Assembly (NCBI GenBank): GCA_016219025.1
Contig: JACRCM010000066.1
Coordinates: 1-39,987 of the forward strand
Reading direction: 5' to 3'
Source of the DNA: Deltaproteobacteria bacterium
Lineage (GTDB): Bacteria; Desulfobacterota; GWC2-55-46
DNA length: 39,987 nt
Numbering within the stretch: position 1 is the stretch's first letter; each line of letters begins with the position of its first letter. Below the pieces are notes generated by a model. That model did no database searches and was not told where the DNA came from. It saw only the letters and a program-made list of their open reading frames with translations. Of this stretch, positions 3,691 through 29,841 are shown in pieces. A program made the translations under genes and the position numbers.

Positions 3691-3733
3691 GTTGCCGGGA
3701 TTTACAAAGTAGCTCTACTTCATCGGCGTCTTT
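3688..3733. repeat. Dispersed repeat, copy 1 (GTAGTTGCCGGG family)
   Basis: Starts GTAGTTGCCGGGATTTACA, continues through an AGCTCTA core and ends ATCGGCGTCTTT. A second copy lies in opposite orientation at 35528-35577 with only a few differences. The ATTTACAAAGTAGCTCTA core also occurs inside the MITEs at 5696-5749 and about 38170-38190, and near 39690-39810. Confidence 0.65.
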
Positions 3734-7952: not shown

Positions 7953-8014
7953 CAAGAGACTCCGATGCCGATATCGTAAGAAAAAAAACGGGGTGGGCGT
8001 CCGTGCCGGACTCG

Positions 8015-12499: not shown

Positions 12500-12991
12500 T
12501 CAAGCGGCGGTCACCACGTTGCCAAGCGCGTCCTTCTCAGAGCGCGTGAGTATCCTGGCCACGTCGAGGAGTATGAGCAGTCTGCCGTCGAGCTTGCCTA
12601 CCCCTTTTATGTAATCAGATTCGATGTTGGTCACGAGCGCCGGAGGGGGCTCCACCGTGTCGGCGGATATGCGCAGCACCTCGGATACCGCGTCTACTTT
12701 AAGCCCTACCGTCCTGTCGTCCACGTCCACGACTATGATGCGGGTCTCGTGCGTCTTTGCGCCAGCGCTCAACCCGAAACGCTTGCGCAGGTCAAGCACC
12801 GGTATGACGCGGCCGCGGAGGTTGATGACCCCTTCGACGAAATCAGGCGTGCGCGGCACCCTTGTGAGTTCCATGTGCCTTATTATCTCCTGCACCTTCA
12901 AGATATCGAGAGAAAATTCCTCGTTGCCGAGCCTGAACGTAACGAGCTGCAAAATCTCCTTCTCTTTCTTATCTTCCGTCAAGTTAGACAT
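12500..12991 (-). CDS. cheW: Chemotaxis coupling protein CheW
   Basis: The 163-residue protein is a single CheW (SH3-like) domain that bridges MCPs to CheA. Typical elements are LVTFRLGNEEFSLDILKVQEI, the loop RVPRTPDFVEGVINLRGRVIPVLDLRKRF and ETRIIVVDVDDRTVGLKVDAV. ATG at 12991 is chosen over an upstream start because AGGAGG precedes it by five bases and the protein then has normal CheW length. Unlike the tightly packed upstream che genes it follows a gap of about 240 bp, so it may have its own promoter. Confidence 0.92.
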   Translation of the reverse strand: MSNLTEDKKEKEILQLVTFRLGNEEFSLDILKVQEIIRHMELTRVPRTPDFVEGVINLRGRVIPVLDLRKRFGLSAGAKTHETRIIVVDVDDRTVGLKVDAVSEVLRISADTVEPPPALVTNIESDYIKGVGKLDGRLLILLDVARILTRSEKDALGNVVTAA

Positions 12992-13080
12992 TGGCGCCTC
13001 CTGTTGTCCGGCCAAGTGATGAACACAATACGCAAAGCACATCTACTGCATGATACGTAAGACATTTCAACTGCTTGCCA

Positions 13081-13233: not shown

Positions 13234-14280
13234 TCATATCATATTCACTATCTCGGCGGCTATCTTGTCGAGCGGCGCGACCTTGTCGGCCAGCCCGGCC
13301 TCGACTACCGCCTTGGGCATCCCGTATACCGTGCAGGACTCCTCGTTCTGGGCTATGGTCTTGCCCCCGGTCTCCTTTATCGCCCTCATCCCCTCAAGGC
13401 CGTCGTGCCCCATGCCCGTCAATATGACGCCCATGGCCCTGCCCGAAAAGCTCTCTGCGACCGACGTCATGGCTATATCAACCGACGGCTTGTAGAGCGA
13501 ATTGAACGGGTCGTTGCTTATCTCCACCTGAAAGTCCGTTACCCCGCGCCGCCTTATCCGGGTCTGCGTGCCGCCAGGCGTTAGGAATACCCGCCCCGGA
13601 GTCACCTTTTCGCCGTCCTCGGCCTCCTTCACGGGTATCTTGCACAGACTGTTGAGCCTCTCGGCGAAGGCGCCGGTAAACGCCTTGGGCATGTGAACGG
13701 CCACGAGGAACGGCGTGCCGATGTCTCCGGGCAGGTGCGAGAGCACCTCCTGAATCGCGCGCGGCCCGCCCGTGGAGGCGCCTATGGCTACAAAGCCTAT
13801 CTTCTGAGTGACGTGCCCGGACGGCGTTGAAAGCGGCGGCTCCGGCCTCCTGTAGGCGCGCAGTCCGTGGAGCCTGTTGGCCTTCCTGCCGAGCGCCTTT
13901 ATCTTGGCGATAAGCTCGTCCTGAATCTTGAGCATATCGAGCGCCGAGGTCACGAGGTTCTTAGAGATATAGTCCGCGGCGCCCTTGTCCAGGGCCTCGA
14001 ACGTCGCGTGCGCGCCCTCGGTGGTGAGCGAGCTTACCATGAGTATGGGCGTGGGGAACTTCTCCATGATGACCCCGGTCGCCTCAAGGCCGTTCATCCG
14101 GGGCATCTCCACGTCCATCGTAATCACGTCCGGCTGAAGAGACGCCGCAAGCTCCACGCCCTCAGCCCCGTCGCGGCCGGAGCCTATCACCTCGATCTCC
14201 GGGTCGGTCTCCAGCATCTGCCGTATGATCCGCCTCATGAAGGCGGAATCATCCACGACCAATACCCTTAGCTTTGACAC
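13234..14280 (-). CDS. cheB: Chemotaxis methylesterase/deamidase CheB
   Basis: The 348-residue protein joins a receiver domain (residues 1-120; phospho-acceptor Asp56 in VITMDVEMP) to a CheB esterase domain. The catalytic serine is in GASTGGPRA, the histidine in VAVHMPKAFT and the aspartate in LTGMGHDGLEG. It removes methyl groups from MCP glutamates for adaptation and opposes the CheR encoded upstream. The start is GTG, preceded by GGGAGG. Length and motifs are normal for the family. A heptamer hairpin fills the gap to cheA. Confidence 0.95.
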   Translation of the reverse strand: MSKLRVLVVDDSAFMRRIIRQMLETDPEIEVIGSGRDGAEGVELAASLQPDVITMDVEMPRMNGLEATGVIMEKFPTPILMVSSLTTEGAHATFEALDKGAADYISKNLVTSALDMLKIQDELIAKIKALGRKANRLHGLRAYRRPEPPLSTPSGHVTQKIGFVAIGASTGGPRAIQEVLSHLPGDIGTPFLVAVHMPKAFTGAFAERLNSLCKIPVKEAEDGEKVTPGRVFLTPGGTQTRIRRRGVTDFQVEISNDPFNSLYKPSVDIAMTSVAESFSGRAMGVILTGMGHDGLEGMRAIKETGGKTIAQNEESCTVYGMPKAVVEAGLADKVAPLDKIAAEIVNMI

Positions 14281-14418: not shown

Positions 14419-16176
14419 TCATGCCGGCTCCCTGTTCAGGGTTTCAAGCAGCCCGGCCACGTCGAGTATCAAGATGACGTTGCCGTCGCCTGTTATGCAC
14501 GCCCCGGCGATCCCCTCGGTGCCCTTGAGATACTCGCCCATCGACTTCATGACGATCTCCTCCTGGCCGTGCAGCTTATCCACGAGCAGGCCGAACGACC
14601 GCTCGCCGACCCCGGTGATTACGATGTATTTCCAATCGGACGAGGCGGCCCCGGACGGGCGGTCCACGAGCGACTCAAGCCTTATGATGGGATAGACCTT
14701 CTCCCTTATGTGTATGACCTCCTTGCCGCGCACGGTCTTTATCTCGGAACCGGTCACCCTGATGTTCTCTATGACCGTCGAAAGCGGGATGCCGTAGACC
14801 TCTCCGGCGGCCTCCACCGTAAGCGCCTGAATGATGGCGAGCGTAAGCGGCAGGCGGAAGGTTATCCTCGTGCCCTTGCCGATCTCGGAGTCGATGTTTA
14901 TAACGCCGTTGATCCTCGTGATGTTCGTCTTTACCACGTCCATGCCGACGCCGCGCCCGGAGATATTGGAGACCTCCTTGGCCGTTGAAAAGCCCGGCAT
15001 GAATATGAGGTTCAGACATTCCTTGTGCGACAGCGCATCCGCGTCCTCCCTGGCGGCAAGCCCCTTGTCAACCGCGGCCTGCCTGATGACGTTGGGGTCC
15101 ATGCCCCTGCCGTCGTCCGATACCGACACGATTATGTGTCTGCCTTCCTGATATGCGCCGAGCTTTACGGCCCCGGCCCTCGGCTTGCCCGCCGCCTCCC
15201 TCGCATCCGGGGGTTCGAGGCCGTGGTCAACGGCGTTCCTTATGAGATGGACGAGCGGGTCGCCGATCTCCTCGATGACTGTCTTATCCACCTCGGTCTC
15301 TTCACCGCTTACGGTCAGGTCTATTTCCTTATTGTTGTGCCTCGCAAGGTCGCGCACCATGCGCGGAAATTTATTGAAGACCTTGGCGATGGGCTGCATC
15401 CGCATCTTCATTATAGCGAGCTGAAGGTCGGTCGTGACGAGGTCGAGCTGTCCTATAGCCTCTTCCATCTGGCCGGTAAGCTCGGACTCCGAGTAGTTCT
15501 CGTTCATCTTGGTCCCGAGGCGCATGAGCCTATTTCTGGAAAGGACCAGTTCTCCCGCAAGGTTCAAGACCGCGTCGAGCCTGTCGATGTCGACCCGGAT
15601 GCTCTGTTCCTTGTCCTTTGCCTGCGGCGCGTCCTCGGGCCTGGCCTCCCGCGGGGCAGCGGACTCCGCCGGCTCAACAGGGCGCGGCTCTTCTTTTGGA
15701 ATTGGAGCGGGAGCCGCCGGTATTACCGGCGCCGGTATCTCGTCAGGCGACGGTACGGAGGGCGCGGCGGACTTGGGCGCGGCGCCGCCCAGTATGTCAT
15801 GGAGCGAGCTTATGACGTGCTCGACGTTTTCCTGCCTTCCGCTCTTGTCCTTTATGTTCCTGAGGATCTTCTTGATAAGGTCTATGGCGTGAAGGAGGGC
15901 GTCCATTATCACGGGGGTGACGGTCATCTCCCCCTTTCTGAGCTTGTTGAGCACGTCCTCCGCGGCGTGCGTCGCCTCGACCATCTGCGTAAAGCCGAGG
16001 AACCCGGCGGCGCCCTTGATGGTATGCACCGACCTGAAGATGTCGTTCAAGAGCTTCGTGTCGCCGGGGTTCTTTTCGAGGCCGACGAATTTCTGGTCGA
16101 GCGCCTCCAGGGACTCGGACGCCTCGGCGACAAAATCATTTATTATGTCGTCCATCTCGTTGGATGAAAATGACAT
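14419..16176 (-). CDS. cheA: Chemotaxis histidine kinase CheA
   Basis: The 585-residue kinase has an N-terminal HPt domain with the phospho-accepting His51 in SVHTIKGAAGFLG. A Pro/Ala-rich linker covers about 135-190, a P3 dimerisation helix pair follows, then an ATPase domain (HLIRNAVDHGLEPP, DDGRGMDP, GRGVGMDVV). A C-terminal CheW-like regulatory domain (about 450-580) ends the protein. I see no clear P2 CheY-binding domain between HPt and P3; the linker there is low complexity. It phosphorylates CheY and CheB. ATG at 16176 is chosen because GGGAG lies five bases upstream; a TTG start four codons earlier would bury that site. Confidence 0.95.
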   Translation of the reverse strand: MSFSSNEMDDIINDFVAEASESLEALDQKFVGLEKNPGDTKLLNDIFRSVHTIKGAAGFLGFTQMVEATHAAEDVLNKLRKGEMTVTPVIMDALLHAIDLIKKILRNIKDKSGRQENVEHVISSLHDILGGAAPKSAAPSVPSPDEIPAPVIPAAPAPIPKEEPRPVEPAESAAPREARPEDAPQAKDKEQSIRVDIDRLDAVLNLAGELVLSRNRLMRLGTKMNENYSESELTGQMEEAIGQLDLVTTDLQLAIMKMRMQPIAKVFNKFPRMVRDLARHNNKEIDLTVSGEETEVDKTVIEEIGDPLVHLIRNAVDHGLEPPDAREAAGKPRAGAVKLGAYQEGRHIIVSVSDDGRGMDPNVIRQAAVDKGLAAREDADALSHKECLNLIFMPGFSTAKEVSNISGRGVGMDVVKTNITRINGVINIDSEIGKGTRITFRLPLTLAIIQALTVEAAGEVYGIPLSTVIENIRVTGSEIKTVRGKEVIHIREKVYPIIRLESLVDRPSGAASSDWKYIVITGVGERSFGLLVDKLHGQEEIVMKSMGEYLKGTEGIAGACITGDGNVILILDVAGLLETLNREPA

Positions 16177-16190
16177 GCAAGCTCCCAAAG

Positions 16191-16265: not shown

Positions 16266-16871
16266 CTACGCCCCAAGTTCCTTCAATATCTTGTCGACCA
16301 CGTCCTGATTCAGCCTCATGGGCTCGGCGGCGTGCGTCTCTTTGAGTTCGTTGAGCATCTCTTTTTTTTCTTCTTTTTTGATGCTGTCCGTAAAATCGAA
16401 GGTTAGCGCGAGTTCGAGGAGTTTGGACTCGATTATCGAGAGGCTGGCTATGACCTTTTTGAGCTTCTGCCCGGTAAGGTCCTGGAAGGACAGATTGGTG
16501 AATATCTCCATCAGGTCCCTCTTCTGCCGGGTGTTTATCCAGTCGAGCTGGACGAGCGCCTCGGACGCCTTCGACCTCTCGGGGTCCGGTATCCCGGCCA
16601 CCCAGCCTGCGAGGGCCTTGATGAGATACTGCGCCTTTTCCTGCTCGAGCATCATGGATTCGAGGAGCGTGATGATGTTGTTGGCCGCGTGTTCGATCTC
16701 GCCGGCCACGGCGGTTATCTGTCTCGACGCCTCCGGAAACTTCTCGGAGCCTATCTTTACGGTGGATTGCAGGCTGTCGAGCCCGTTGCGGGTCTTGTCG
16801 ACGAACCTCACCAGCAAGGAGAGCTCGCCCTTTATCCTCTGCAATGCGTCATTCCAGTTGTTGTCGGCCAT
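16266..16871 (-). CDS. cheZ: CheY-P phosphatase CheZ
   Basis: The 201-residue, almost entirely helical protein has the CheZ catalytic motif FQDLTGQKLKK. This holds the Asp that orients CheY and the Gln that positions the attacking water. The C-terminal helix LNQDVVDKILKELGA matches the CheY-binding tail. CheZ accelerates CheY-P decay and so ends the motor signal. It sits directly between cheY and cheA. GGAG precedes the ATG. The core motif is intact; the rest is divergent from the enterobacterial protein, as is normal outside gammaproteobacteria. Confidence 0.88.
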   Translation of the reverse strand: MADNNWNDALQRIKGELSLLVRFVDKTRNGLDSLQSTVKIGSEKFPEASRQITAVAGEIEHAANNIITLLESMMLEQEKAQYLIKALAGWVAGIPDPERSKASEALVQLDWINTRQKRDLMEIFTNLSFQDLTGQKLKKVIASLSIIESKLLELALTFDFTDSIKKEEKKEMLNELKETHAAEPMRLNQDVVDKILKELGA

Positions 16872-16922: not shown

Positions 16923-17327
16923 CTATTTGGACGCGGCCTTGACCTTGGCGAGGATGAGATCTATCCTCTCCTTGAGCACCGCGGCCGTGAACGGCTTTAC
17001 GATGTAATTATTGACCCCGGCCTGCACCGCGTTTATGACGTTCTCCTTCGCGGCCTCGGCCGTTACCATGAGGACGGGCATCGTCCTGATGGACGCCTCG
17101 GCGTCCTGCCTGATGGCCGTGAGGAGTTCGATCCCGGACATGTTGGGCATGTTCCAGTCGGTTATTACGAAGTCGAACCTGCCGCCTTTGAGTTTTTGAA
17201 GCGCGACGTTGCCATCCTCGGCCTCCTCGACGTTATGATAGCCTATCTCCAGGAGGATGTTCTTTATGATCCTCCTCATGGTCGAGAAGTCATCGACGAC
17301 CAATATCCTCATGTTTTGATCGAACAT
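16923..17327 (-). CDS. cheY: Chemotaxis response regulator CheY
   Basis: The 134-residue single receiver domain has the acidic pair Asp12/Asp13, the phospho-acceptor Asp57 in [12 protein letters not shown], a Thr in MVTAEA and Lys in VKPFTAA. DWNMPNM and the [12 protein letters not shown] start closely resemble motor-binding CheY proteins. Phosphorylated CheY binds FliM and FliN, both encoded in this cluster, to change flagellar rotation. AGGAGG precedes the ATG. It stands immediately before cheZ, the expected phosphatase partner. Confidence 0.94.
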
Positions 17328-17404: not shown

Positions 17405-17767
17405 TTACAATAACTTTTCAATCTCATAAAGGAGCCGCTGCGGCGAAAACGGTTTTGTGAGATACGCCGTGACCCCGGCGTCGAACCCCATCTTCCTGTC
17501 GGCGTCCCCGGACTCGGTCGTGACCATGATTATCGGAAGCTCCCTGTAGACCTCCTGCCCGCGCAGGCTCCTTGAGAATTCAAGGCCGTCCATCTGCGGC
17601 ATATTGAGGTCGGTCACCACGAGGTCCACCGGATTCTCGGCCATGACCTCAAGCGCCTCTAGCCCGTTGGAGGCCGCCAATATCTTATAGCCCCGCTCCC
17701 TGACGATATACGACAGGAGTTTGCGCGTGGTGTCGCAGTCGTCAACTATCAATATTCTTTTCTCCAT
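17405..17767 (-). CDS. Second CheY-like receiver protein
   Basis: The 120-residue single receiver domain has Asp9/Asp10, phospho-acceptor Asp53 in VVTDLNMPQMDG, Thr in MVTTES and Lys in LTKPFSP. It differs clearly from the neighbouring CheY: it has DLNMPQM rather than DWNMPNM and lacks the CheY-like N-terminus. It may be a phosphate sink, an adaptation regulator or a partner of CheR. ATG at 17767 is chosen because AGGAGGGG precedes it; the longer reading frame upstream overlaps cheR and lacks family similarity. Confidence 0.85.
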   Translation of the reverse strand: MEKRILIVDDCDTTRKLLSYIVRERGYKILAASNGLEALEVMAENPVDLVVTDLNMPQMDGLEFSRSLRGQEVYRELPIIMVTTESGDADRKMGFDAGVTAYLTKPFSPQRLLYEIEKLL

Positions 17768-17852
17768 CCATCCCCTCCTGCTCCTCGTCAGGCGGTTTGC
17801 CTTCGGCAAATCAGCCTGCGCCTGCGCATGTCCGCGACCGTCTTCGTAACCG

Positions 17853-18713
17853 CTATGATTTCTGATACACCACCGAACGCTCGATGGACACCGGCCTGAA
17901 GAGCCTTGTGATGTTGTGCAGCGACTCGGAGAACCCCACGAGCAGGTATCCGCCCTTGACGAGGCTGTCATAGAGGTGGCTGCATACCTTCTTCTTCGAG
18001 GCCTCGTCGAAGTAGATGAGCACGTTGCGGCAGAAGACCACGTCCATGCCCCTCACCGCCCTTGTCTCCGCCGTCTCAAAGAGGTTGATGCTCCTGTACT
18101 TGACGACCTCCTGCACCCGGCCGTTCACCATGAAATTGTCACCGTCAGGGACGAAATATTTGCGGAGATAGACCTCGGGGGTATTGCGGAGCGAATACCT
18201 GTCATACCGGGCGGATTGCGCGGTCTTGAGCACCACGTCGCTCAAGTCGCTGCCGATGATCTCTATGGTGATGCCCATCTTACAGATGAGCGGCTCCTCC
18301 ATGAGCATCATGGCGAGGGTATACGGTTCCTCGCCGGTCGAACACGCGGCGCTCCAGATGCGGATGTGCTTGCCGCCGGAGGCGAGCTTGGCCTCGATAA
18401 GGCGCGGTATTACCCCGCCCTTGAACACGTCGAGCTGCACGGGGTCGCGGAAAAAGGACGTCTCGTTCGTGACGACGGAATTGAGGAGGTGCCTGAATTC
18501 GGCCTCGCGCGCCGGGTCGTAGGTCAGAAAATAATAGTAGTCCTCGAAGGTCTTGAGGTTGCGCTCCTCGAGCCTTCTCATCAGCCTGGTCTCCAGGAGA
18601 TACTTCTTCGTCTCCGCGAACGCGATCCCGCTCCTCGCGTATATGACGTCGCGCAGAAAGCGGAAGGTGTCGTTGGAGAGTTTGGGCTTGCTGTTGAGGC
18701 CGAGCGTCAGCAT
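17853..18713 (-). CDS. cheR: Chemotaxis methyltransferase CheR
   Basis: The 286-residue S-adenosylmethionine-dependent enzyme methylates glutamates of MCPs. A helical N-terminal domain (FRFLRDVIYARSGIAF, KYLLETRLMRRL) precedes the SAM-binding Rossmann domain with WSAACSTGEEPYTLAM. DVVFCRNVLIYFDE and the terminal GGYLLVGFSESL are also typical. Its ATG overlaps the stop of the HEAT-repeat gene by 7 bp, so the two are translationally coupled. It pairs functionally with the CheB encoded downstream. Confidence 0.95.
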   Translation of the reverse strand: MLTLGLNSKPKLSNDTFRFLRDVIYARSGIAFAETKKYLLETRLMRRLEERNLKTFEDYYYFLTYDPAREAEFRHLLNSVVTNETSFFRDPVQLDVFKGGVIPRLIEAKLASGGKHIRIWSAACSTGEEPYTLAMMLMEEPLICKMGITIEIIGSDLSDVVLKTAQSARYDRYSLRNTPEVYLRKYFVPDGDNFMVNGRVQEVVKYRSINLFETAETRAVRGMDVVFCRNVLIYFDEASKKKVCSHLYDSLVKGGYLLVGFSESLHNITRLFRPVSIERSVVYQKS

Positions 18714-20647
18714 CTCAATATCCCTATTGCCGCCTCGGCGGCGGCCCTGACGTTTTGATCGGGGTGATCGAGATACCGCTCCAGCACCGGCACGGCCTTC
18801 ATCGAGCCGATGGACGCGAGGGCGCGGGCCGCCGCGGCCTTTACCGGGGGCTCGTCGCCGATGAGGAGTTCCGTTATAGCGGCCTCCGCCTCGGAGGCGC
18901 GCATCTCGCCCAGGAGGAGCGCGGCGTTATACCTCACCCAGAGATTCCCGTCCTTTAGCGCGCCCATGAGCGCCAGCCTTATCTTATCGCCCGACCACCC
19001 GCCGAGCGCCTTCATTACCGAGAGCTTGACCTCGTCGTCGCCGTCCTTGAGGCCGGCTATGACCGCGTCCGCGGCGTCCGGGATGCCTATCCTCGCAAGG
19101 GCGTTGTATACGGCCTTTCGCACGCCGCCGCTCTTGTCGGCGGCCGCGGCCCGTAGACACGCGACCGCCTCCTCGTCCCCTATGAGGCCGAGCCCGCGCG
19201 CCGACATCTCCCGCAACTGTTCGTTCGGGCCGCAGAGGAGCGCATAGAACCCGCGCTTTACGGCGTCGGAGGGTATGGACGCGAGCACGTCCGTTATCTC
19301 CTCCATGACGTCCCTGTAGACCTCGGCGCGGAGCGACTCAAAGAGCGGCGTGACCGCCCCTTCGCCCGCAAGGGACGCCAGCGCCCTCGCGGCTATCTTC
19401 CTGGCGTGGCCGTCCCGGCTGTGCAGGGATTTGGCCAGCACCTCGATCGACCCTATGGAGCCTATCGACTCAAGGGCTGAGACCACATCGCGGAGGTCCT
19501 GTTTTCCGGCCGTCTCCATGAGGTCTTCGAGGACCGGCACGGCCTCGGCGGATTTCATGGCGCCCATGGCCCTTACGGCGATCCTGAAATTCTTACCGCC
19601 GCGCTTGAGCTCCCCGGCGAGTACCGGCATGACGGGACGCGCGGGGTGCAGCGTTCGCATCGCCATTGATATAGAGACAATGGCGTCGACGATGACCGTC
19701 TCTTCATCTTCGTTGATTTCCTTGACGGAGTTGAGGAAACCGAAGACCTTCGGGAGTCCCTCCGGCGTCTTGAGGAGCCCGAGGCCGCGCATGGCCTCTA
19801 TCTTCACCGGCCTCTCGCACTCGCCCATCGCCTTGCCGAAAAAATCGAAATAGACCCGCCTGAACTCGTCCGAGGGCTTGAAGTCGGACGCCGGGGAGAA
19901 CGCCTTTTCAAGGAGCTCGACGACCGCGCCCACGCCGCTCAGGACGCCGCTTCTTACCAGCGGTTTGAGTTTGAGGAGGATCCTGGCGGAATCAGCCGGC
20001 CCCGCGAACTTGCTCACGGCGTCGACCGCCGCCTCGCGCGCAAGCCCGGAGTCCCGCTCTATGATTTCAAGGAGCCTGGGCAGCGATGCCCTGTCCTGCA
20101 GATGCCCCAGCCCTTCTATAGCCGAGAATCTCACCCACTCCTCCCTGTCGCCGAGCGCCTCAAGAAGGACCGCCGCCGAGTCCGGCGCCTTTATCCTGCC
20201 GAGGCAGACCGCGACCGAGGCGCGGACGTTGGGGTTAGCGTGATGGAGGAGCCCCATGAGCATCGACACGGCCCGCGCCTCCTTCATACCCGCGAGGATG
20301 TCGACGGCGAACTTCACCACGTCGTCGTCAGGGTCGTGGAGGAGCACGGATATCGCCGGGAGTATCACTGAGCCGAGCTGCTGGAGCACCTCTATGGCGA
20401 TATTGCGGAGCGCAGGCTCGGAAGAGCGCAGGAGCGGCGCGACGCACACGGCGACGGCCTCCCCGCCGATGGCCACGAGAGCGTTGAGCGCGGCCTCCTT
20501 CACCCCGGCGTCCGGGTCGCGCAGCACCTCCACGAGGCCGGGTATGGACTCCCTGTCCTTCCGTTCCCCGATGGCCTCGCACGCCGACCTTCGCAGCTCT
20601 GGTTCCGCCGAATGGAGATTCGCCATGACCGCGTCTTTGCCGTTCAT
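18707..20647 (-). CDS. HEAT-repeat protein of the chemotaxis operon
   Basis: The 646-residue soluble protein consists almost wholly of HEAT/PBS-lyase-type repeats of about 31 residues, as in LRDPDAGVKEAALNALVAIG and LGDREEWVRFSAIEGLGHL. They recur from residue 10 to the C-terminus (NVRAAAEAAIGIL), with a less regular stretch at about 230-330. Such solenoids are protein-protein scaffolds; no catalytic motif is visible. ATG at 20647 follows a GAGGCGG sequence and is preferred to one 24 bp upstream. It lies between fliA and cheR and overlaps cheR, so a scaffold or adaptor role in chemotaxis signalling is plausible but not shown. Confidence 0.82.
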   Translation of the reverse strand: MNGKDAVMANLHSAEPELRRSACEAIGERKDRESIPGLVEVLRDPDAGVKEAALNALVAIGGEAVAVCVAPLLRSSEPALRNIAIEVLQQLGSVILPAISVLLHDPDDDVVKFAVDILAGMKEARAVSMLMGLLHHANPNVRASVAVCLGRIKAPDSAAVLLEALGDREEWVRFSAIEGLGHLQDRASLPRLLEIIERDSGLAREAAVDAVSKFAGPADSARILLKLKPLVRSGVLSGVGAVVELLEKAFSPASDFKPSDEFRRVYFDFFGKAMGECERPVKIEAMRGLGLLKTPEGLPKVFGFLNSVKEINEDEETVIVDAIVSISMAMRTLHPARPVMPVLAGELKRGGKNFRIAVRAMGAMKSAEAVPVLEDLMETAGKQDLRDVVSALESIGSIGSIEVLAKSLHSRDGHARKIAARALASLAGEGAVTPLFESLRAEVYRDVMEEITDVLASIPSDAVKRGFYALLCGPNEQLREMSARGLGLIGDEEAVACLRAAAADKSGGVRKAVYNALARIGIPDAADAVIAGLKDGDDEVKLSVMKALGGWSGDKIRLALMGALKDGNLWVRYNAALLLGEMRASEAEAAITELLIGDEPPVKAAAARALASIGSMKAVPVLERYLDHPDQNVRAAAEAAIGILRC

Positions 20648-20754
20648 ATCGCCGCCTCTCGCATCTTTCATCTTGTTGTCACGCCCGTTGCCGCTTATTT
20701 AAACCGCTTATTGTTTATCGGATGAATGCGAAAATTCTTGAAGGCCGTGTCCCG

Positions 20755-21486
20755 TCACTCCGCCATAAATCCCTTGAGCCGGGCCTTGAGCCTGTGCATG
20801 GTCTGGCTGTGCAGTTGACAGACCCGCGACTCCGTAATCTCCATGACCTTGCCTATCTCCTTGAGCGTAAGCTCGTCGTAGTAATAAAGCGCGATTATGA
20901 GCTTTTCCTTCTCAGGCAGGCCGGCCACCGCCTCGGAGACGGTCTTTTTAAGTTCCATGAGTTTGGCCGCCGCGACCGGGTCCGCGCCGTTGGGGTCTTT
21001 GATGCAGTCGAGTATGTCCATGCCTTCATCGCTGCCTGCGACGCCCATGTCCTCGAGGTTCAACACGCCCAGGGACGCGACCTCGCTCAGCATGGAGTGC
21101 AGCTCTTCCGTGCTTATATGGAGCGCCTTGGCCACCTCCTCGGCCTCGGCCGGCCTGCCGGTGCGCCGTTCCACCTCGCCGTATGCGCGTTCGAGGTTGT
21201 TGGACTTGTCCCGCATGGACCTCGTCATCCAGTCCATGCTCCTGAGCTCGTCCATTATAGCGCCGCGCACCCTGATGGAGGCGTATGTGTTGAACTGGAC
21301 GCCCCTTCCAGCATCGAACCGCTCCAGCGCCTCCATGAGGCCGATCATGCCCGCGCCGATGAGGTCGTTCACGTCCACGTGCGGAGGCAGGTTCACGGCC
21401 ACCTGGTAAGCGATGATCTTCACCAGGTGCATGTGGTCGTTCAAGAGCTTCTCTCTGTCTATCCGCGCCGTCTCGCTTGTTTTCAT
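20755..21486 (-). CDS. fliA: Flagellar sigma-28 factor FliA
   Basis: The 243-residue sigma factor has region 2 (NDLIGAGMIGLMEALERFD, FNTYASIRVRGAIMDELR), region 3 (TGRPAEAEEVAKALHIS) and region 4 with a helix-turn-helix (LTLKEIGKVMEITESRVCQLH). The sequence MDELRSMDWMTRSMR is characteristic of FliA/WhiG-type sigma factors. It would read the sigma-28 promoter found upstream of flgM. ATG at 21486 is preferred to the much longer frame, which runs into flhG. GGAAGG is close to the start. The 20-bp gap to flhG indicates one transcript. Confidence 0.94.
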   Translation of the reverse strand: MKTSETARIDREKLLNDHMHLVKIIAYQVAVNLPPHVDVNDLIGAGMIGLMEALERFDAGRGVQFNTYASIRVRGAIMDELRSMDWMTRSMRDKSNNLERAYGEVERRTGRPAEAEEVAKALHISTEELHSMLSEVASLGVLNLEDMGVAGSDEGMDILDCIKDPNGADPVAAAKLMELKKTVSEAVAGLPEKEKLIIALYYYDELTLKEIGKVMEITESRVCQLHSQTMHRLKARLKGFMAE

Positions 21487-21506: not shown

Positions 21507-22373
21507 CTAATATCCCTTGTTCACGACGTTTCGCCAGAAGAGCTGCATCCCGCCCTTGATGCCGGTCGGCGGCGCGTGTTCGAGCGCTGCTGCAGCGACC
21601 TCGCGGAAGCACGCGCTTGCCCTGGAGTCGGGGAAGAGTTCCATGACCGCCTTCTGCCTGGCCACGGCCTTAGGCACGCATTCGTCCTGGAGGACGCATC
21701 CGAGATAATCTATCGAGACGTTGAGGAACCTGTCCGCGGCCCCGCATATATTGCGATAGACGGCGAGGCCGTGTTTTTTCGTCTTCGCGCAGTTTACGAT
21801 GAGCTTGAACGACCGTTCCCCGTGGCGTCCGAGGAGCACCTTCATCAAGGCGTAGGCGTCGGTAATGGCCGTCGGTTCCGGCGTTACAACGATGATTATC
21901 TCGCGGGAGGCGGCGTTGAAGAAGAGCACGTTGCCGGATATCCCGGCGGCCGTGTCTATGAGCATGAGGTCGAACGCGCCTTCCGAGGCGGCGTAGGACT
22001 CAAGGTGGGAGATGACGGCGAGCCGCTCCCCGGCCCCGAGGTCGGTAAGCTCGCAGACCCCGGAGCTTGCGGGGAGTATCTTTATGCCCGCCGGCCCGTC
22101 GACCACTACGTCCGACATGGCCTTCTCGCCCCGGAGCACGTGCCCTACGTTGTATTGCGGGGCCAGTCCGAGGAGCACGTCGATGTTCCCGAGGCCGAGG
22201 TCGGCGTCGAGCACCAGACACCTCTTGCCCGCCCTGGCGAAGGCTATGGCCATGTTGACGACGGCGTTAGTCTTGCCGACGCCGCCCTTGCCGCTGGTAA
22301 CCGAGATGACCCTCACCTGCGCCTGATCGCCGCCGCGGGCCGGAGGAGAATTTTCGTTGGATGCGTCGTTCAT
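21507..22373 (-). CDS. flhG: MinD/ParA-family ATPase FlhG (FleN), shortened N-terminus
   Basis: The 288-residue P-loop ATPase has the deviant Walker A motif SGKGGVGKTN and DADLGLGNIDVLLG. It also has LIDTAAGISGNV and the VTPEPTAITDAYALMK stretch typical of FlhG. FlhG controls flagellar number and placement with the SRP-type GTPase FlhF. Normally a conserved N-terminal DQAxxLR helix of about 20 residues stimulates FlhF. Here DQAQ runs straight into the first beta strand (VRVISVTSG), so that helix is lost, and flhF is absent from the adjacent position. A heptamer repeat starts five bases before the ATG, with no clear ribosome binding site. Confidence 0.88.
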   Translation of the reverse strand: MNDASNENSPPARGGDQAQVRVISVTSGKGGVGKTNAVVNMAIAFARAGKRCLVLDADLGLGNIDVLLGLAPQYNVGHVLRGEKAMSDVVVDGPAGIKILPASSGVCELTDLGAGERLAVISHLESYAASEGAFDLMLIDTAAGISGNVLFFNAASREIIIVVTPEPTAITDAYALMKVLLGRHGERSFKLIVNCAKTKKHGLAVYRNICGAADRFLNVSIDYLGCVLQDECVPKAVARQKAVMELFPDSRASACFREVAAAALEHAPPTGIKGGMQLFWRNVVNKGY

Positions 22374-22378
22374 GATTC

Positions 22379-22474
22379 AGTTATCAGTTATCGGTTGTCG
22401 GTAATGCTAAGATGCTCAGGCTGCCTGTTACCGGTCTTGTCCTTACTGATAACCGATAACCGTCCACGGATAAC
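22379..22474. repeat. GGTTATC heptamer hairpin between flhG and flhA
   Basis: Left arm units AGTTATC, AGTTATC, GGTTGTC and GGTAATG (22379-22406) face right arm units TGATAAC, CGATAAC, CGTCCAC and GGATAAC (22447-22474). The 40-bp centre includes TGTTACCGG, another degenerate unit. The element occupies essentially all of the 104-bp gap where flhF would be expected. Confidence 0.8.
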
Positions 22475-22477
22475 CGT

Positions 22478-24571
22478 TTAAAGGCTTACTACCTTGAGCG
22501 TCTTTACTCCGGCGTTGGGGACGATTTCATTATACGACAAGACGGCTAGCGCGGGCAACGCATTTTCAACGAGCCTGCGGACAAACCTTCTGGCCTCAGC
22601 TGAGACGAGCACGACCGGCTTTACGTCCCTGGACGCCGCGGCGTCGAGCGCGTCCTTTATCCCGCCGACGATGCGCTGGGAGAGCGCGGGCTCCATGGCT
22701 ATGAGGATGCCGCCGGGCGTGGGGCGCGCCGAGGACGTTATGGCGTCCTCTATCTCCCGCGTAAGCGCTATGGCGTGGATGACCCCGGCCTTGTCCTGAT
22801 GGTCCCTCGAAATCCTCCGCGCAAGCGACGCCCTGACGCATTCCGTCAAAACCCAGGCGTCGAAAGGCTCATCCTTGCCCTCCGGCGGCTCGGCAAGGGT
22901 CTCCAGTATGGTCTGAAGGTCGCGTATCGACTCGCGCTCGCGCAGGAGATTCCTCAACACCTTCTGTATCCCGCCGAGTCCGGCGCGCAAGACCGCCTCC
23001 GCCGCAAGCGCCGGGTGCGTCCTCGCGGCGGCGTTCATCAGGTCCTGGGTCTCCTGACGCCCAAGGAGTTCATGCGCGTGACCCTTTATCATCTCCGTTA
23101 CGTGCGTGGTAATGGCCGCGGCGTGGCTTACGACGGTATACCCGTGCGCGCGGGCGCGCTCCCCGTCCGCGTCCTTCACCCATACGGACGGCAGTCCGAA
23201 GGCCGGGTCAACGGCCGGTATGCCCTCTATGTTCAGCGTGCCTCCCCTCCTCGCGTTGCCCGGGTCGACGACAAGCGAATGGCCGGCGAGGAGGCGTCCA
23301 CGCGCGGCCTCCACGCCGCGCAGATGGAATACGTATTCGGTCGGCCCAAGCCTGAGGTTGTCCCTTATGCGTATGGAGGGCACGGATATCCCTGTCTCCT
23401 CGGCGAACTGCCCCCTTATGGCCCTGAGCCTCTCAAGGAGTTCCCCCGCGCCCTCGCCCGCGTCAGCGTCTATGAGCGGTATGAGGCCGTAGCCTACGTC
23501 AAGGCCGAGCGCGTCCACCGGCGCTATCCCGGCGTCGGGCTGGGGAGCGGCCACGGCGGAGACCAACGGAGCGGCGTCCAGCGCGCGCGTCTTCGCGCCA
23601 AGGTAGACGAGATAGCCCATCCCGGCGGTGGCCGCGCCGAGCGCGAAGAACGCGAAGTGGGCGAACCCGGGGATGAGGCCGAGGGCGAACATTACCGCGG
23701 AGGCTATGAATATCGGCTTGTGCTGGATTGTGAACTGTCTGCCGATGGACTCGCCGAGGCCGTAGTCGGCGTTCACGTGGGAGACGGCAAGACCCGCGGC
23801 GGTGGAGACGATGAGCGCGGGTATCTGCGCCACCAGGCCGTCGCCGATGGTAAGGAGCGTATACGTCCTCGCTGCCTCCGCTATCGGCATCCCGTGCTGG
23901 AAGACGCCTATGATAAGGCCGCCTACGATGTTTATCACGGCTATGAGGATGCAGGCTATCGCGTCACCCCTTACGAACTTGCTCGCCCCGTCCATCGCGC
24001 CGTGGAAATCCGCCTCGCGGCTGACAAGACGCCTCCTCTCCATCGCCTCGGTCCCGTCGATAAGCCCGGCGTTCAAGTCCGCGTCTATCGCAAGCTGCTT
24101 GCCGGGCATGGCGTCGAGCGTGAAGCGCGCCGCCACCTCGGCGATCCTGCCCGCGCCCTTGGTTATCACAACGAAGTTTATTATCACGAGTATCAGGAAG
24201 ACCACGAAACCGACGGCGTAGTTGCCGCCTACGGCGAACGTCCCGAAAGACCTTATCACCTCTCCGGCCGCGCCCGGACCTTCGGAGCCGCGCATGAGTA
24301 TGAGCCTCGTGGACGCGACGTTGAGGCCTAGCCGAAGAAGCGTCGTAAGAAGAAGCACCGCCGGGAACGTGGCGAACTCCAGCGGCCTCCTCACGTATAT
24401 CGCAAGGAATAGGATGACGAGAGAGGCCGTTATGCTGAAGGCAAGGCCGAGGTCGAGGAGAAACGGCGGCACCGGCAGTATCATCAACGCGACTATGGCG
24501 ATGACGCCCGCGGGCAGCGCGAGTTCGTAGCCCCTTCTCATGCTCAGTATGTTTTCCGTCATGTCCGCCAT
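22478..24571 (-). CDS. flhA: Flagellar type III export protein FlhA
   Basis: At 697 residues it is a full-length FlhA. The N-terminal half has about eight transmembrane helices with the highly conserved FHIPEP-family cytoplasmic loop (ARFTLDAMPGKQLAIDADLN, RRRLVSREADFHGAMDGASK). The C-terminal half, from about 345, is the cytoplasmic nonamer-ring domain that docks substrate-chaperone complexes. FlhA uses the proton motive force together with FlhB, FliP, FliQ and FliR, all encoded upstream in the same direction. AGGGAAACGATT precedes the ATG. No truncation or frame problem is seen. Confidence 0.96.
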   Translation of the reverse strand: MADMTENILSMRRGYELALPAGVIAIVALMILPVPPFLLDLGLAFSITASLVILFLAIYVRRPLEFATFPAVLLLTTLLRLGLNVASTRLILMRGSEGPGAAGEVIRSFGTFAVGGNYAVGFVVFLILVIINFVVITKGAGRIAEVAARFTLDAMPGKQLAIDADLNAGLIDGTEAMERRRLVSREADFHGAMDGASKFVRGDAIACILIAVINIVGGLIIGVFQHGMPIAEAARTYTLLTIGDGLVAQIPALIVSTAAGLAVSHVNADYGLGESIGRQFTIQHKPIFIASAVMFALGLIPGFAHFAFFALGAATAGMGYLVYLGAKTRALDAAPLVSAVAAPQPDAGIAPVDALGLDVGYGLIPLIDADAGEGAGELLERLRAIRGQFAEETGISVPSIRIRDNLRLGPTEYVFHLRGVEAARGRLLAGHSLVVDPGNARRGGTLNIEGIPAVDPAFGLPSVWVKDADGERARAHGYTVVSHAAAITTHVTEMIKGHAHELLGRQETQDLMNAAARTHPALAAEAVLRAGLGGIQKVLRNLLRERESIRDLQTILETLAEPPEGKDEPFDAWVLTECVRASLARRISRDHQDKAGVIHAIALTREIEDAITSSARPTPGGILIAMEPALSQRIVGGIKDALDAAASRDVKPVVLVSAEARRFVRRLVENALPALAVLSYNEIVPNAGVKTLKVVSL

Positions 24572-24610: not shown

Positions 24611-25396
24611 TCAGCCATTTTTCCTTCCGCTGACCGCCTCTTGCTGCGCCCTTCTTATGCGCTCGCGCAGGGCCGGGTCGCCCTCTGACTCTCTGAGTTC
24701 GGCCATCAACTCCTCCCTCGTCACGCGCAGGCTCCGCTCGAACGCCCATCTCTCATACGCATAATCGAGCGCGGCTATCGCAAAGAGCGCCCAGAGGCTC
24801 TTCCGCATCATGGCGAAGACCATCGCGCCCATGTATCCCATGACCCCGGCAGGCTCCATGTCCACGAGCGCCGGGAGCGCGCCCCACTCCTGGGCCGCGC
24901 TTGCGTAGACGGCATAGCCGATGACCGCGGCCTTTAATAACGTCTTTGCGGCCGCCGCGCCTGATAAGAGCCTCTTGACGCCGTTGAATGGGTTCAACCT
25001 TCCCGCATCGGGCGCGAGCGCGCCGGGCGCGGCGAGAAACCCGTTTTGCGCCATGTACGAGAGCGCCGCCGCGACCGGCAGCATGACGACGGGCGCGGCA
25101 AGATAGGCAAAGGCGTAAGCCGCGCCCCGCAGAAGCGCCGCGCCGTGGTCTACGGTCATGCCGCCGGGGTTTAACAATGCGATTGCCTTGAAAGACCTCT
25201 GCATCAGACCGGCCGCGCCCATGAGCATCCATGCGCCGGCATAATAAAAGAGGAGCACGCCTGCAAGGGCTACGACAAAGGCGGCAACCTCCCTTGAGAC
25301 CGGAGCCCTGCCCACGCGGCGCGCCCTCTCTCTGCCCTGTTCGCTCGGCGCCTCGGTTCTTTCTCCAGCGTATGACCGCGCGTCTTCAGACGGCAT
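24611..25396 (-). CDS. flhB: Flagellar export protein FlhB lacking the C-terminal autocleavage domain
   Basis: The 261-residue product has the FlhB N-terminal signature (GERTEAPSEQGRERARRVGRAPVSREV reduced to its pattern ERTEAP...SREV). Four hydrophobic segments follow, with the conserved RLNPFNGVKRLLS loop and the cytoplasmic helix leading to ESEGDPALRERIRRAQQE. Normal FlhB proteins are about 350-380 residues; they continue with VPxADVVITNPTH, where they cleave themselves. Here the frame stops at SGRKNG and flhA begins 39 bp later, so the whole cytoplasmic domain is missing. The other two frames of the gap do not encode it. ATG at 25396 overlaps the fliR end by 11 bp. Confidence 0.88.
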   Translation of the reverse strand: MPSEDARSYAGERTEAPSEQGRERARRVGRAPVSREVAAFVVALAGVLLFYYAGAWMLMGAAGLMQRSFKAIALLNPGGMTVDHGAALLRGAAYAFAYLAAPVVMLPVAAALSYMAQNGFLAAPGALAPDAGRLNPFNGVKRLLSGAAAAKTLLKAAVIGYAVYASAAQEWGALPALVDMEPAGVMGYMGAMVFAMMRKSLWALFAIAALDYAYERWAFERSLRVTREELMAELRESEGDPALRERIRRAQQEAVSGRKNG

Positions 25397-26165
25397 GACC
25401 GCCCCCCGTTGCCAAGACAGTGATGCCATCGAACATCCTGTCGAATATCATCGCCAGCGCCGCCTCGAAAGACGAAATGGATAACATTATCATCAACAAC
25501 CCGGCGGCGATGGCGGCCGTGAACATGACGGTAAGGATGTCCAATCCCGGAACGGAGCGCGCGACTATCACGCACGCGGCGTTCACGAAGAGGCTTACGG
25601 CGATTATCGGGGCCGATAGCTTGACGGCTATGATGAAGACCTCTTTTGAAAAGACTATCATGCGCTCCATGAACGCGGGCGCAAGGACGAAGGCGCCCGC
25701 CGGGGCCGCCTCGAAACTCCTCGCAAACGCGCCGATGACCATGAGGTGTCCGTTCATGCTAAGGAAAACGAGCACTGCGAAGACGGTAAAGAACCTCCCT
25801 ACCGGGCTGCGCATCGGAGCGGACGCCGGGTCGTATACGGCCCCGAGCCCAAGGCTCATCTGCGCCGATGCAACCTCTCCGGCGTATTCGACCCCGGCGA
25901 ATACAAGCCTCATGGCGAAGCCGATGGCCGCGCCCGCGACCGCCTCGCACGCGATGGCCGCGACGAATAACGCCGCATCTGTGGAAGCGCCCTCTTTAAC
26001 CAGCGGCGCGATGACTACGGCCAACGCGAACGCAAACCCCAGCCTTATCCGCAAAGGCGTCTCCCCTGCCCCGAAGACCGGCGCGGTCAGGACGAGCGCG
26101 CCCGCCCTGGCGAGGACGAGGAGAAAGACCGCCGGATTGTAATCCATGAATCGGATGAATCCCAT
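25386..26165 (-). CDS. fliR: Flagellar export protein FliR
   Basis: The 259-residue membrane protein has the FliR pattern: FLLVLARAGALVLTAPVFG, PLRIRLGFAFALAVVIAP and GEVASAQMSLGLGAVYDPAS. Long hydrophobic helices follow. FliR combines with FliP5 and FliQ4 in the export gate inside the basal body. ATG at 26165 is chosen because it leaves 8 bp after the fliQ stop codon and matches the usual N-terminus. The earlier frame overlaps fliQ. It ends overlapping flhB, as is common for this gene pair. Confidence 0.93.
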   Translation of the reverse strand: MGFIRFMDYNPAVFLLVLARAGALVLTAPVFGAGETPLRIRLGFAFALAVVIAPLVKEGASTDAALFVAAIACEAVAGAAIGFAMRLVFAGVEYAGEVASAQMSLGLGAVYDPASAPMRSPVGRFFTVFAVLVFLSMNGHLMVIGAFARSFEAAPAGAFVLAPAFMERMIVFSKEVFIIAVKLSAPIIAVSLFVNAACVIVARSVPGLDILTVMFTAAIAAGLLMIMLSISSFEAALAMIFDRMFDGITVLATGGGHAV

Positions 26166-26173
26166 TTGACAGC

Positions 26174-26443
26174 TCACTTTATATAATTCGGCATGTCCAT
26201 GAATATCCGGCTTGCGAACCTCGTCATCACGTCCAGCATCCACGGCAGCGCGAGCAGGAAGACGGCGAAGACCGCCACGAGCTTGGGCACGAACGAGAGC
26301 GTGGCCTCGCGCACCTGCGTCACGGTCTGCAGGACGCCGACGGCGACGGCCGTAACGAACGCCGCGCCGATGAGCGGCATGGCCAACATGAAGGCGGTCT
26401 GCACAGCCTCCTTGCCTATATTTGCTATCGCCTCCGGCGTCAT
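26174..26443 (-). CDS. fliQ: Flagellar export protein FliQ
   Basis: The 89-residue protein has two transmembrane helices. It carries the FliQ signature MTPEAIANIGKEAVQTAFML followed by LIGAAFVTAVAVGVLQTVTQ and EATLSFVPKL. It forms the middle part of the export gate helix. The start at 26443 lies 7 bp after the fliP stop codon. Length and topology are standard. Confidence 0.94.
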   Translation of the reverse strand: MTPEAIANIGKEAVQTAFMLAMPLIGAAFVTAVAVGVLQTVTQVREATLSFVPKLVAVFAVFLLALPWMLDVMTRFASRIFMDMPNYIK

Positions 26444-26450
26444 ATCCGCC

Positions 26451-27209
26451 TCACCCGTTGAAACTACGCACAAGAGAACCCACTATCAGATACCACCCGT
26501 CAACGAGAACGAAGAGCAGGAGCTTGAATGGCAGCGACACGACGGCCGGCGGCATCATCATCATGCCGAGGGACATTAGCACGCTCGCGGCCACCATATC
26601 GATGACCAGAAACGGTATGTATATGAGGAAACCTATCTGGAACGCGGCCCTGAGCTCGCTCGTGACAAAGGCCGGGATGAGCGCGAGCGTGCCCGCGTCC
26701 TCGGGACGCGCGTTGTCCGGGGCCTTGGCAAGCCTCTGGAACATCTCCAATTCCTTGGCCCTCGTGTTCCTGAGCATGAAGGCGCGCAGTGGCGCCATGC
26801 CCTTCGTAAGCGCCGTCCCGGCGTCTATCCGGCCCCGCATGTAAGGGCCAAGCGCGTCTTCGTTCACCTTCGATATGACCGGCGACATGATAAAAAGGGT
26901 CAGAAAGAGAGAAAAACCGGTGATTATCTGGTTCGCGGGCGCGTTCGGGATGCCGATGGCCTGCCTGAGGATGGCGAAGACCACGGCGACCCTGGTGAAC
27001 GAGGTCATCAGGAGCACGAGGCCGGGCGTGACGGACAAGAGGGTAACGAGGAGGATTATCTCCACCAACGCCGCCTCTCCATGCCGCGTGCCTGTGCCGA
27101 GCGTCACCGAGAGATTCAAATCCCCGGACGCGGACGCGGCCTGCGCCGCGGCGCCTGAGGCCAGGAGCGCAAAGGCCGCAAGGATTATAATGGCAAGCCG
27201 TCTTTTCAT
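26451..27209 (-). CDS. fliP: Flagellar export protein FliP
   Basis: The 252-residue protein has an N-terminal cleavable signal peptide (MKRRLAIIILAAFALLASGAAAQA), as in many FliP proteins. The family core follows: TPGLVLLMTSFTRVAVVFAI, LRQAIGIPNAPANQIITGFS, AFVTSELRAAFQIGFLIYIP and SLGMMMMPPAVVSLPFKLLL. FliP is the main pore subunit of the export gate. ATG at 27209 is preferred because the signal peptide begins there; the longer frame overlaps fliO. No strong ribosome binding site is seen, so coupling to fliO is likely. Confidence 0.95.
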   Translation of the reverse strand: MKRRLAIIILAAFALLASGAAAQAASASGDLNLSVTLGTGTRHGEAALVEIILLVTLLSVTPGLVLLMTSFTRVAVVFAILRQAIGIPNAPANQIITGFSLFLTLFIMSPVISKVNEDALGPYMRGRIDAGTALTKGMAPLRAFMLRNTRAKELEMFQRLAKAPDNARPEDAGTLALIPAFVTSELRAAFQIGFLIYIPFLVIDMVAASVLMSLGMMMMPPAVVSLPFKLLLFVLVDGWYLIVGSLVRSFNG

Positions 27210-27222
27210 GTTGGGAAGACCG

Positions 27223-27570
27223 TTAAACCCGTTTGAACAGCCCGAACAACCCGGCGCACCTGCCGTTGCCGCGCCTTCTGAGTTCATCCGCCGCCTCCGG
27301 CCTTTCCACCTTCATCACCATATTCACCGAGGCCGGGGTGACGCCGAGCACGATGACCTCTCCGGCCACGTCGACAACGGTGAGACTCTTTTTATGCTCA
27401 AGCTGGAATACCCGCAAGACCTTGATGGGTTCGTCCGCGTCCATGCGGCGCAGCCCGGCCCTTTTCATAAGACGCTTCAGGCCGTAGAGAAATGCGCCCA
27501 GCATGACCAGCACGAGCGCCAATGAGAAGAACGCCTTGAGGAGCAGGTAGACGTAAGAATCGGTCATCAT
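27223..27570 (-). CDS. fliO: Flagellar export-gate assembly protein FliO
   Basis: The 115-residue protein has a single N-terminal transmembrane helix (about 8-30). A basic cytoplasmic part follows with IKVLRVFQLEHKKSLTVVDVAGEVIVLGV, whose pattern (a short beta-rich segment after the helix) is typical of FliO/FliZ. FliO helps FliP assemble and is not in the final gate. The start codon overlaps the fliN stop by 4 bp. Sequence conservation is low in this family; position between fliN and fliP makes the call secure. Confidence 0.85.
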   Translation of the reverse strand: MMTDSYVYLLLKAFFSLALVLVMLGAFLYGLKRLMKRAGLRRMDADEPIKVLRVFQLEHKKSLTVVDVAGEVIVLGVTPASVNMVMKVERPEAADELRRRGNGRCAGLFGLFKRV

Positions 27571-27914
27571 TTGAGCCTCTGGGCGCGTTCTGACGCGCTT
27601 ACGACCTCGGTGAGCCTGACGCCGAACCGCTCGTTGACGACAACCGCCTCTCCCTTTGCCACGAGCTTGCCGTTGACAAACACCTCCAAAGGCTCGCCCA
27701 CGGGTTTATCGAGCTCGACTACCGAATGTCTAGCGAGCCTGAGAAATTCGCGCACCGTCATCTTCGCGCGTCCTATCTCGACCGAGACCGCCACAGGAAT
27801 GTCGAGCACCATGTCGAGGTTGGGGGTTGCATCCTCGCGCCCGGCATCCGCCGCGTCCAGCCTCGCCGTAAGACCAACGGAGGCAATCGGATTATTGAGA
27901 TTGTCTTCTGACAT
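27567..27914 (-). CDS. fliN: Flagellar motor switch protein FliN
   Basis: The 115-residue protein has a variable N-terminus and a C-terminal SpoA domain: LDMVLDIPVAVSVEIGRAKM, LARHSVVELDKPVGEPLEVF and LVAKGEAVVVNERFGVRLTEV. FliN forms the base of the C-ring, binds CheY-P and docks the export ATPase complex. It overlaps fliO by 4 bp and begins 2 bp after the fliM stop codon. Confidence 0.95.
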   Translation of the reverse strand: MSEDNLNNPIASVGLTARLDAADAGREDATPNLDMVLDIPVAVSVEIGRAKMTVREFLRLARHSVVELDKPVGEPLEVFVNGKLVAKGEAVVVNERFGVRLTEVVSASERAQRLK

Positions 27915-29710: not shown

Positions 29711-29722
29711 TCGGAATGCCGT

Positions 29723-29841
29723 TATCCTTCAAAGCGGCACCCCGTTAACGCGGGCGAATACACCGTGCCACTATCCTTCAAAGTGGCGCCCCGTTAACGC
29801 GGGCGAATACACCGTGCCACTATCCTTCAAAGTGGCGCCCC
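29723..29841. repeat. 49-bp tandem repeat overlapping the flavodiiron stop codon
   Basis: Copies start at 29723, 29772 and 29821 with period 49; the third is partial. The unit includes TATCCTTCAAAGTGGCGCC and CCCGTTAACGCGGG. Copies two and three differ little, the first has a few changes. The last copy lies in the 3' end of the flavodiiron gene, so the gene's final codons and stop have been duplicated downstream. The unit contains short inverted repeats (AGTGGC/GCCACT) and could form hairpins. Confidence 0.85.

Follow-up and report, generated by a model that had tools for sequence, protein, structure and literature searches.

A probable rodless, flagellum-derived export base and an FlhF-less flhG in an uncultured genus of the Desulfobacterota

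The window analysed here, 39,987 nucleotides in length, is one entire contig (JACRCM010000066.1) of the assembly GCA_016219025.1, a metagenome-assembled genome (MAG) of an uncultured groundwater bacterium of the Desulfobacterota. It carries the gene order fliM-fliN-fliO-fliP-fliQ-fliR-flhB-flhA-flhG-fliA-HEAT-cheR-cheY-cheY-cheZ-cheA-cheB-cheW-MCP, where MCP stands for a methyl-accepting chemotaxis protein, and the subject of this report is the direct junction of flhA and flhG in this order:

21507..22373, minus strand: flhG, a MinD-type ATPase lacking the DQAxxLR enhancer helix; its Walker A motif and C-terminal membrane helix are kept
22374..22477, minus strand: flhA-flhG gap of 104 bp, the flhF site in flagellated relatives; holds a dispersed intergenic repeat that the congener does not share
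22478..24571, minus strand: flhA, full length and of flagellar type (TIGR01398, 780.9 bits, over the cut-off; SctV model, 600.8)

We have compared the source genome (G000; 2.18 Mb in 170 contigs, 86.8% complete) with a congener (G001; a separate MAG, 94% complete), with 59 relatives and with a sample of 395 genomes at the phylum level. This genus probably has no flagellum, and keeps in its inner membrane a stripped, rodless, flagellum-derived type III export base, beside the ancestral flhG-fliA-chemotaxis operon.

The flhA-flhG junction and the loss of FlhF

The first-pass annotation of this window had reported flhA followed by flhG across a repeat-bearing gap with no flhF between them, and the distance of 104 bp has been confirmed exactly. 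It had also proposed a genome-wide search for flhF, which we have carried out with the TIGR03499 cut-off as the criterion for FlhF and with Pfam SRP54 for the GTPases of the signal recognition particle type. No FlhF over the cut-off was found in the whole source genome or in the congener, and flhF is not hidden among the SRP54 matches, because only two true ones are present in the source genome, one FtsY-like (contig C88) and one Ffh-like (C80). In the flagellated genomes among the 59 relatives whose flhA-flhG locus is assembled, flhF or a divergent flhF sits at this site; the flhG of the source genome is not directly downstream of any flhF and retains its position between flhA and fliA. The congener has the same direct junction, without flhF and with an FlhG lacking the helix, and its gap is without the repeat, which is therefore incidental in the source genome.

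The gap holds copies of the dispersed TTATCGGTTATC-type repeat; being too short for a relic of flhF, dispersed elsewhere in the window and absent from the congener, this repeat has been ruled out both as such a relic and as a regulatory element. Two dispersed intergenic repeat families, of the TTATCGGTTATC type and of the GATTTACAAAGTAGCTCTA type, were noted in the window at positions 3663, 8630, 14301, 16191, 22379 and 22452, and also at 3696, 5693, 35543, 38174 and 39696.

The N-terminus of FlhG reads MNDASNENSPPARGGDQAQVRVISVTSGKGG, and a stop codon two codons before the ATG limits the upstream extension of the open frame to one codon; therefore no hidden helix is possible, and a misplaced start has been excluded. 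The first-pass annotation was right that the enhancer helix is missing, as it is in the congener too; the residues DQAQ that it pointed out are a chance match, because the congener reads GAGI at the same place. In an AlphaFold model, residues 1-17 are unstructured (predicted local distance difference test, pLDDT, below 50), the first strand of a MinD-like fold begins at residue 21, and the C-terminal amphipathic helix 274-285 is kept. The deviant Walker A motif KGGVGKT, the catalytic and dimer motifs and the C-terminal membrane helix are all retained.

The alignment of FlhG N-termini with those of relatives, likewise suggested by the first-pass annotation, comprised 102 unique FlhGs, of which 100 could be classified. 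Within this lineage, the helix is absent from every FlhG without FlhF (G000, G001, G008 and G005). An flhF is adjacent and the helix present in 51 FlhGs, flhF is adjacent and no DQAxxLR-like motif present in 42, both flhF nearby and helix are missing in seven, and no FlhG has the helix without flhF. The motif is thus absent in 42 of the 93 unique FlhGs with adjacent flhF, commonly outside the family (Desulfobacterales, Nitrospira), so that its absence is not diagnostic of the loss of FlhF and has been rejected as proof of it. The DQAxxLR helix is not a constant feature of FlhG orthologues in these phyla. According to a review (PMC12826062), the motif is conserved and flhG is consistently found directly downstream of flhF; both generalizations have exceptions here. 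The sequences are consistent with loss of the helix after loss of FlhF. As for the co-elimination of the two that had been suggested, both are indeed gone, and the tree described below implies that this happened independently two or more times; the idea is weakened by the same 42 of 93 FlhGs.

Among the FlhGs with adjacent flhF and no DQAxxLR, those of Desulfobacterales share an N-terminal motif of roughly VISLxxRR/KI (loci L067, L071, L072, L074, L080, L082, L089, L096, L099, L101, L112, L114, L116 and L123), possibly an alternative element for activating FlhF, and those of Nitrospira (L083, L091, L102, L105 and L107) share an MQPGILDPQ-like N-terminus. One relative (G012; contigs C12 and C21, loci L136 and L149) carries two flagellar export sets, with two each of FlhA, FlhB, FlhF and FlhG, and one of these FlhGs is without the helix despite its adjacent flhF.

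The retained export core and the missing flagellar parts

Beside flhA, the window holds the following part of the export core, to be read against the flagellated relative G003:

24611..25429, minus strand: flhB, membrane part only (272 amino acids; PF01312 positions 1-243 of 335), no autocleaving NPTH domain
25386..26243, minus strand: fliR, start probably internal
26174..26473, minus strand: fliQ, assigned by sequence and similarity to the congener, start probably internal
26451..27287, minus strand: fliP, profile match
27223..27570, minus strand: fliO, in agreement with the fliO position in G003
27567..27914, minus strand: fliN, 115 amino acids
27917..28921, minus strand: fliM, strongly diverged (31% identity to G003), with the motif LSKQEIDMLL

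A second cluster, on contig C122 of the source genome and contig C88 of the congener, consists of a sigma-54 response regulator, fliF, fliG, fliH, fliI and fliJ. The core kept by the genus thus comprises FliF, FliG (N-terminal and middle domains), FliM, FliN, FliH, FliI, FliJ, FliO, FliP, FliQ, FliR, FlhA and the transmembrane part of FlhB, and includes an export gate and an ATPase of the flagellar type; like FlhA, FliP scores higher as a flagellar protein than with the corresponding Sct model (269 against 182 for SctR).

Three proteins of this core are trimmed. FlhB stops in both species just before the NPTH autocleavage and switch domain (window 24611-25429; L129:12684-13469), which more than 50 relatives keep in their intact FlhBs; truncation by a frameshift has been ruled out, since the flhB-flhA gap is just 39 bp in the source genome and 125 bp in the congener and the protein has the same end in both. 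FliG keeps its N-terminal and middle domains and lacks the C-terminal torque domain (Pfam FliG_C) in both species. The Pfam C-domain of FliF is partial or missing across the two; according to the alignment, the beta-collar is lost, the ring-building motifs RBM1 and RBM2, both membrane helices and a C-terminal tail resembling the FliG-binding one are kept, and the congener is also without RBM3. An AlphaFold model of FliF, of low confidence (mean pLDDT 61, from three sequences), gives only a hint of an RBM3 without collar in the source genome. FliM keeps the N-terminal motif LSKQEIDMLL, which resembles a CheY-binding one, and CheY could therefore still signal to the base.

Two further genes follow fliJ in both species (L194:11715-12814, L195:9291-10441), one for a multi-pass membrane protein (59% identical between the two) and one for a lipoprotein (60%). 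Neither has a match in the other compared loci or a Pfam family over the cut-off, and both are candidate new parts of the system.

The axial, filament and motor parts were sought with the marker Flg_bbr_C, which covers FlgC, FlgE, FlgF, FlgG and FlgK, and with queries for single proteins. No Flg_bbr_C protein was found in either species, against five to six matches in most of the relatives whose flagellar gene set is full. Genome searches of both species did not find flagellin, nor FlgC, MotA or FlgI, all three of which the same query recovers in the control G006. FlhA is present in 40 of the 59 relatives, and only the two species of this genus have it without any rod or hook protein. At the phylum level, 249 of the 395 genomes have an FHIPEP match, and among these 249 Flg_bbr_C is absent only in the source genome, G236, G285, G328 and G400, the match of the last being a weak fragment. 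G236, G285 and G400 could have injectisomes or be of the same kind as the source genome; G328 and G023 have been rejected as further FlhF-less or rodless genomes because of assembly gaps.

Deletions can be seen at junctions within contigs, namely those of flhF, the FlhB C-domain (before flhA), flgB-flgC-fliE, the FliG C-domain (before fliH) and motAB. In G003, flgB-flgC-fliE lies between fliF and the sigma-54 regulator region, where 214 bp are left in the source genome, and motAB lies between an HDOD gene and cheB, where the source genome has an MCP and cheW.

The core genes are under purifying selection. Between the two species, at a synonymous divergence (dS) of about 1, the ratio of nonsynonymous to synonymous divergence (dN/dS) is 0.15-0.31 for flhG, flhA, flhB, fliR, fliQ, fliP, fliO, fliN, fliI and fliH and 0.46 for fliF, the ratios being rough because dS is near saturation. 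Neutral simulation at this divergence gives about 60 stop codons per lineage over 11 core genes, with a minimum of 40 in 200 runs; no stop was seen in the 11 core genes of the source genome or in the counterparts recovered from the congener, all of which are open. From the lack of stops and the low dN/dS it follows that the core has been maintained by selection since the axial genes were lost.

In the FlhA tree, the proteins of the genus nest inside their own family (ultrafast bootstrap, 100), and therefore the core descends vertically from a flagellum and is not an acquired injectisome, with which the profile scores agree. A concatenated tree of FlhG, FliA, Che and HEAT-repeat proteins groups G008 with the genus as its sister (100), and G005 falls elsewhere, with G035 (90). 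Both G005 and G008 keep flhG-fliA-HEAT-cheR-cheY-cheZ-cheA-cheB in order (L130:8921-10686, L131:9500-11316), and in neither have FlhA, FlhB, FliF, FliG, FliI, rod proteins or flagellin been found. Because the two are separate on the tree, there have been two or more losses of FlhF, none of them preceding that of the flagellum, and FlhG has outlived FlhF along with FliA and the chemosensory operon.

Interpretation and competing readings

On the basis of gene content, domain losses, purifying selection and vertical descent of the core, all of which have been demonstrated, we consider it probable that the genus keeps an export base confined to the inner membrane. Nearly all parts lying outside this membrane, namely the rod, hook, filament and P-ring, would have been shed, as would the motor and the substrate-switch domain. 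FlhF, which in flagellates is reported to recruit FliF and to bind FliG (PMC12826062), would have been lost along with the flagellar parts, its task having disappeared, so that flhF would be gone because the whole flagellum is gone. FlhG would next have dropped the now useless FlhF-stimulating helix and kept its ATPase and membrane-binding parts. An FlhB without switch domain would suit a machine that stays with one substrate class throughout, and a FliG without C-domain would suit a ring that is not rotated. Without an axial structure the base may still export something, release into the periplasm being conceivable, or may act as a membrane platform, and FlhG probably now acts on the FliA/chemosensory module or on how many export bases there are. 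A bolder form of this proposal, namely that a recent, independent and still active exaptation has turned the flagellum into a rodless inner-membrane export machine, with new parts possibly supplied by the genes after fliJ and FlhG given over to the FliA/chemosensory module, is offered tentatively, as a plausible case falling somewhat short of an even chance.

Several observations weigh against an export base of this kind. The core evolves two to three times faster than neighbouring genes, the chemotaxis genes of the genus having normal rates; the FlhA distance divided by the che-FliA-FlhG distance is 1.3-1.8 for pairs with the genus against 0.61-0.64 among flagellates; and FliM, FliR, FliF and FlhB are strongly diverged, FliM identity to G003 comparing with 66-73% among flagellates. 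Both genomes of the genus are MAGs of 87% and 94% completeness, and FliE, FlgB, MotB, FlgD, FliK, FliL, FliD, FliS and FlgH were judged from gene clusters alone, with no genome-wide search.

The core proteins might have been recruited to type IV pilus function, with the chemosensory operon steering pili and with no export machine of their own. Such recruitment has an experimentally supported precedent in non-flagellated Lysobacter (PMC7277350, PMC9927559), and would suit the retention of a chemosensory operon without a motor; the complete gate-ring-ATPase set, including FliP, FliQ, FliO, FliM, FliN and FliJ, rather suggests an assembled base, and we regard pilus recruitment as unlikely. We regard as quite unlikely that the genus has a slowly decaying flagellum of no present function and is on its way to the state of G008, where only flhG-fliA-che is left. 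This sister, in the same fully supported clade, has indeed lost the whole export core, which fits slow decay and counts against a functional base, and the acceleration of the core and the different trimming of FliF in the two species point the same way. However, the core is open in both species at a divergence where neutrality predicts some 60 stops per lineage, dN/dS is far below 1, and in both the ends of FlhB and FliG coincide cleanly with domain borders.

That the organism is an ordinary flagellate, with flhF and the axial genes in unassembled parts of the MAGs, is very improbable and has largely been refuted. The fragmentation and incompleteness of the source genome would allow it, and G328 shows that rod genes can drop out of an incomplete assembly in which flhF, MotA and full FlhB are present, but two independent MAGs agree, deletions fall within contigs at several junctions and also within three proteins, and the axial genes, spread over several loci in relatives, are all missing. 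The proposal of the first-pass annotation, a flagellate in which FlhG, unaided or with some other partner, places the flagellum, drew on the joint absence of flhF and the enhancer helix and is hardly credible: no rod, hook, hook-associated protein, flagellin or stator gene (FlgC, FlgI and MotA included) was found in either species and three base proteins (FlhB, FliG, FliF) are cut short, which leaves no flagellum that would need placing.

Known systems and the neighbouring genes

Flagellar type III secretion systems (T3SS) retained by non-flagellates are already known from Lysobacter and Buchnera and, as a related T3SS, from Myxococcales. Non-flagellated Lysobacter enzymogenes keeps a flagellar T3SS that has been shown to secrete a test flagellin and to take part in twitching, for which FlhA, FlhB, FliI and FliR are required (PMC7277350, PMC9927559). 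It resembles the present genus in having no flagellin or flagellum, in keeping FlhA, FlhB, FliP, FliQ, FliR and ATPase genes and in having lost motA, motB and fliE; it differs in that its function was shown by experiment, and, by description, the genus is set apart by an FlhB without switch domain, a FliG without torque domain, a FliF without collar and an flhG-fliA-che operon kept with the core. The non-flagellar T3SS (NF-T3SS) of Myxococcales, which is without FlgBCDEK, FliEG, FlgH, MotAB and needle, is conserved and has been argued to be functional and to descend from an intermediate of the flagellum-to-injectisome exaptation (Abby and Rocha, PMC3459982). It shares with the genus the loss of axial Flg proteins and MotAB, but belongs to a single old NF-T3SS clade, whereas FliG N-terminal and middle domains are kept here and FlhA is flagellar-type and nested in its own family, which makes the derivation here recent and independent. 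The same paper noted flagella-like loci in a dozen non-flagellated species, and cites non-motile Buchnera, whose flagellar set is reduced to the basal body with a proposed role in secretion; by description, reduction there stops at the basal body, while the present genus has shed its rod genes and the P-ring protein as well. Compared with the canonical FlhF-FlhG pair (PMC12826062), FlhG here has the same flhA-fliA position, intact ATPase fold and membrane helix, but neither FlhF nor enhancer helix.

What distinguishes the present genus is the recent, independent origin within a flagellate family, the clean domain trimming of FlhB, FliG and FliF, and the loss of FlhF with FlhG kept. The change of a flagellum into another machine, and the order in which its parts are lost, have been debated largely on the strength of a single ancient case, the injectisome. 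One family now offers a series: complete flagellates that have FlhF, a genus whose trimmed rodless base is under selection and lacks FlhF, and species with only flhG, fliA and the chemosensory operon. This series makes the order of loss testable, from rod and motor through FlhF, the FlhB switch and the FliG torque domain to the gate. The genus is possibly a natural halfway stage between flagellum and secretion machine; if so, it would represent the state proposed for the origin of the injectisome, with the flagellate members of the family as near-ancestral controls. The survival of FlhG after FlhF and the flagellum points to a role in gene regulation or in the chemosensory system, which cannot be separated in studies of flagellates.

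The remaining genes of the operon and its surroundings are as follows.

20755..21486, minus strand: sigma factor of the fliA/WhiG family, start inferred at MKTSE
18707..20671, minus strand: HEAT-repeat protein, part of the conserved flhG-fliA-che operon
17853..18713, minus strand: cheR
17405..17971, minus strand: cheY-like response regulator, start probably internal
16923..17327, minus strand: cheY
16266..16871, minus strand: cheZ
14419..16188, minus strand: cheA
13234..14280, minus strand: cheB, named from sequence, 67-85% identity to same-place orthologues in relatives
12500..13042, minus strand: cheW, which with the MCP takes the motA-motB place of G003
10257..12350, minus strand: MCP

A response regulator with GAF and HD-GYP-like (HD_5) domains lies near the che operon (window 6387-7955), and its homologues adjoin flhG in G005 and G008 (L130:10959-12413; L131:7098-8663); it is a possible chemosensory output via cyclic di-GMP. 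Near fliM, a 49-bp tandem repeat of about 2.3 copies was noted at window 29717-29863.

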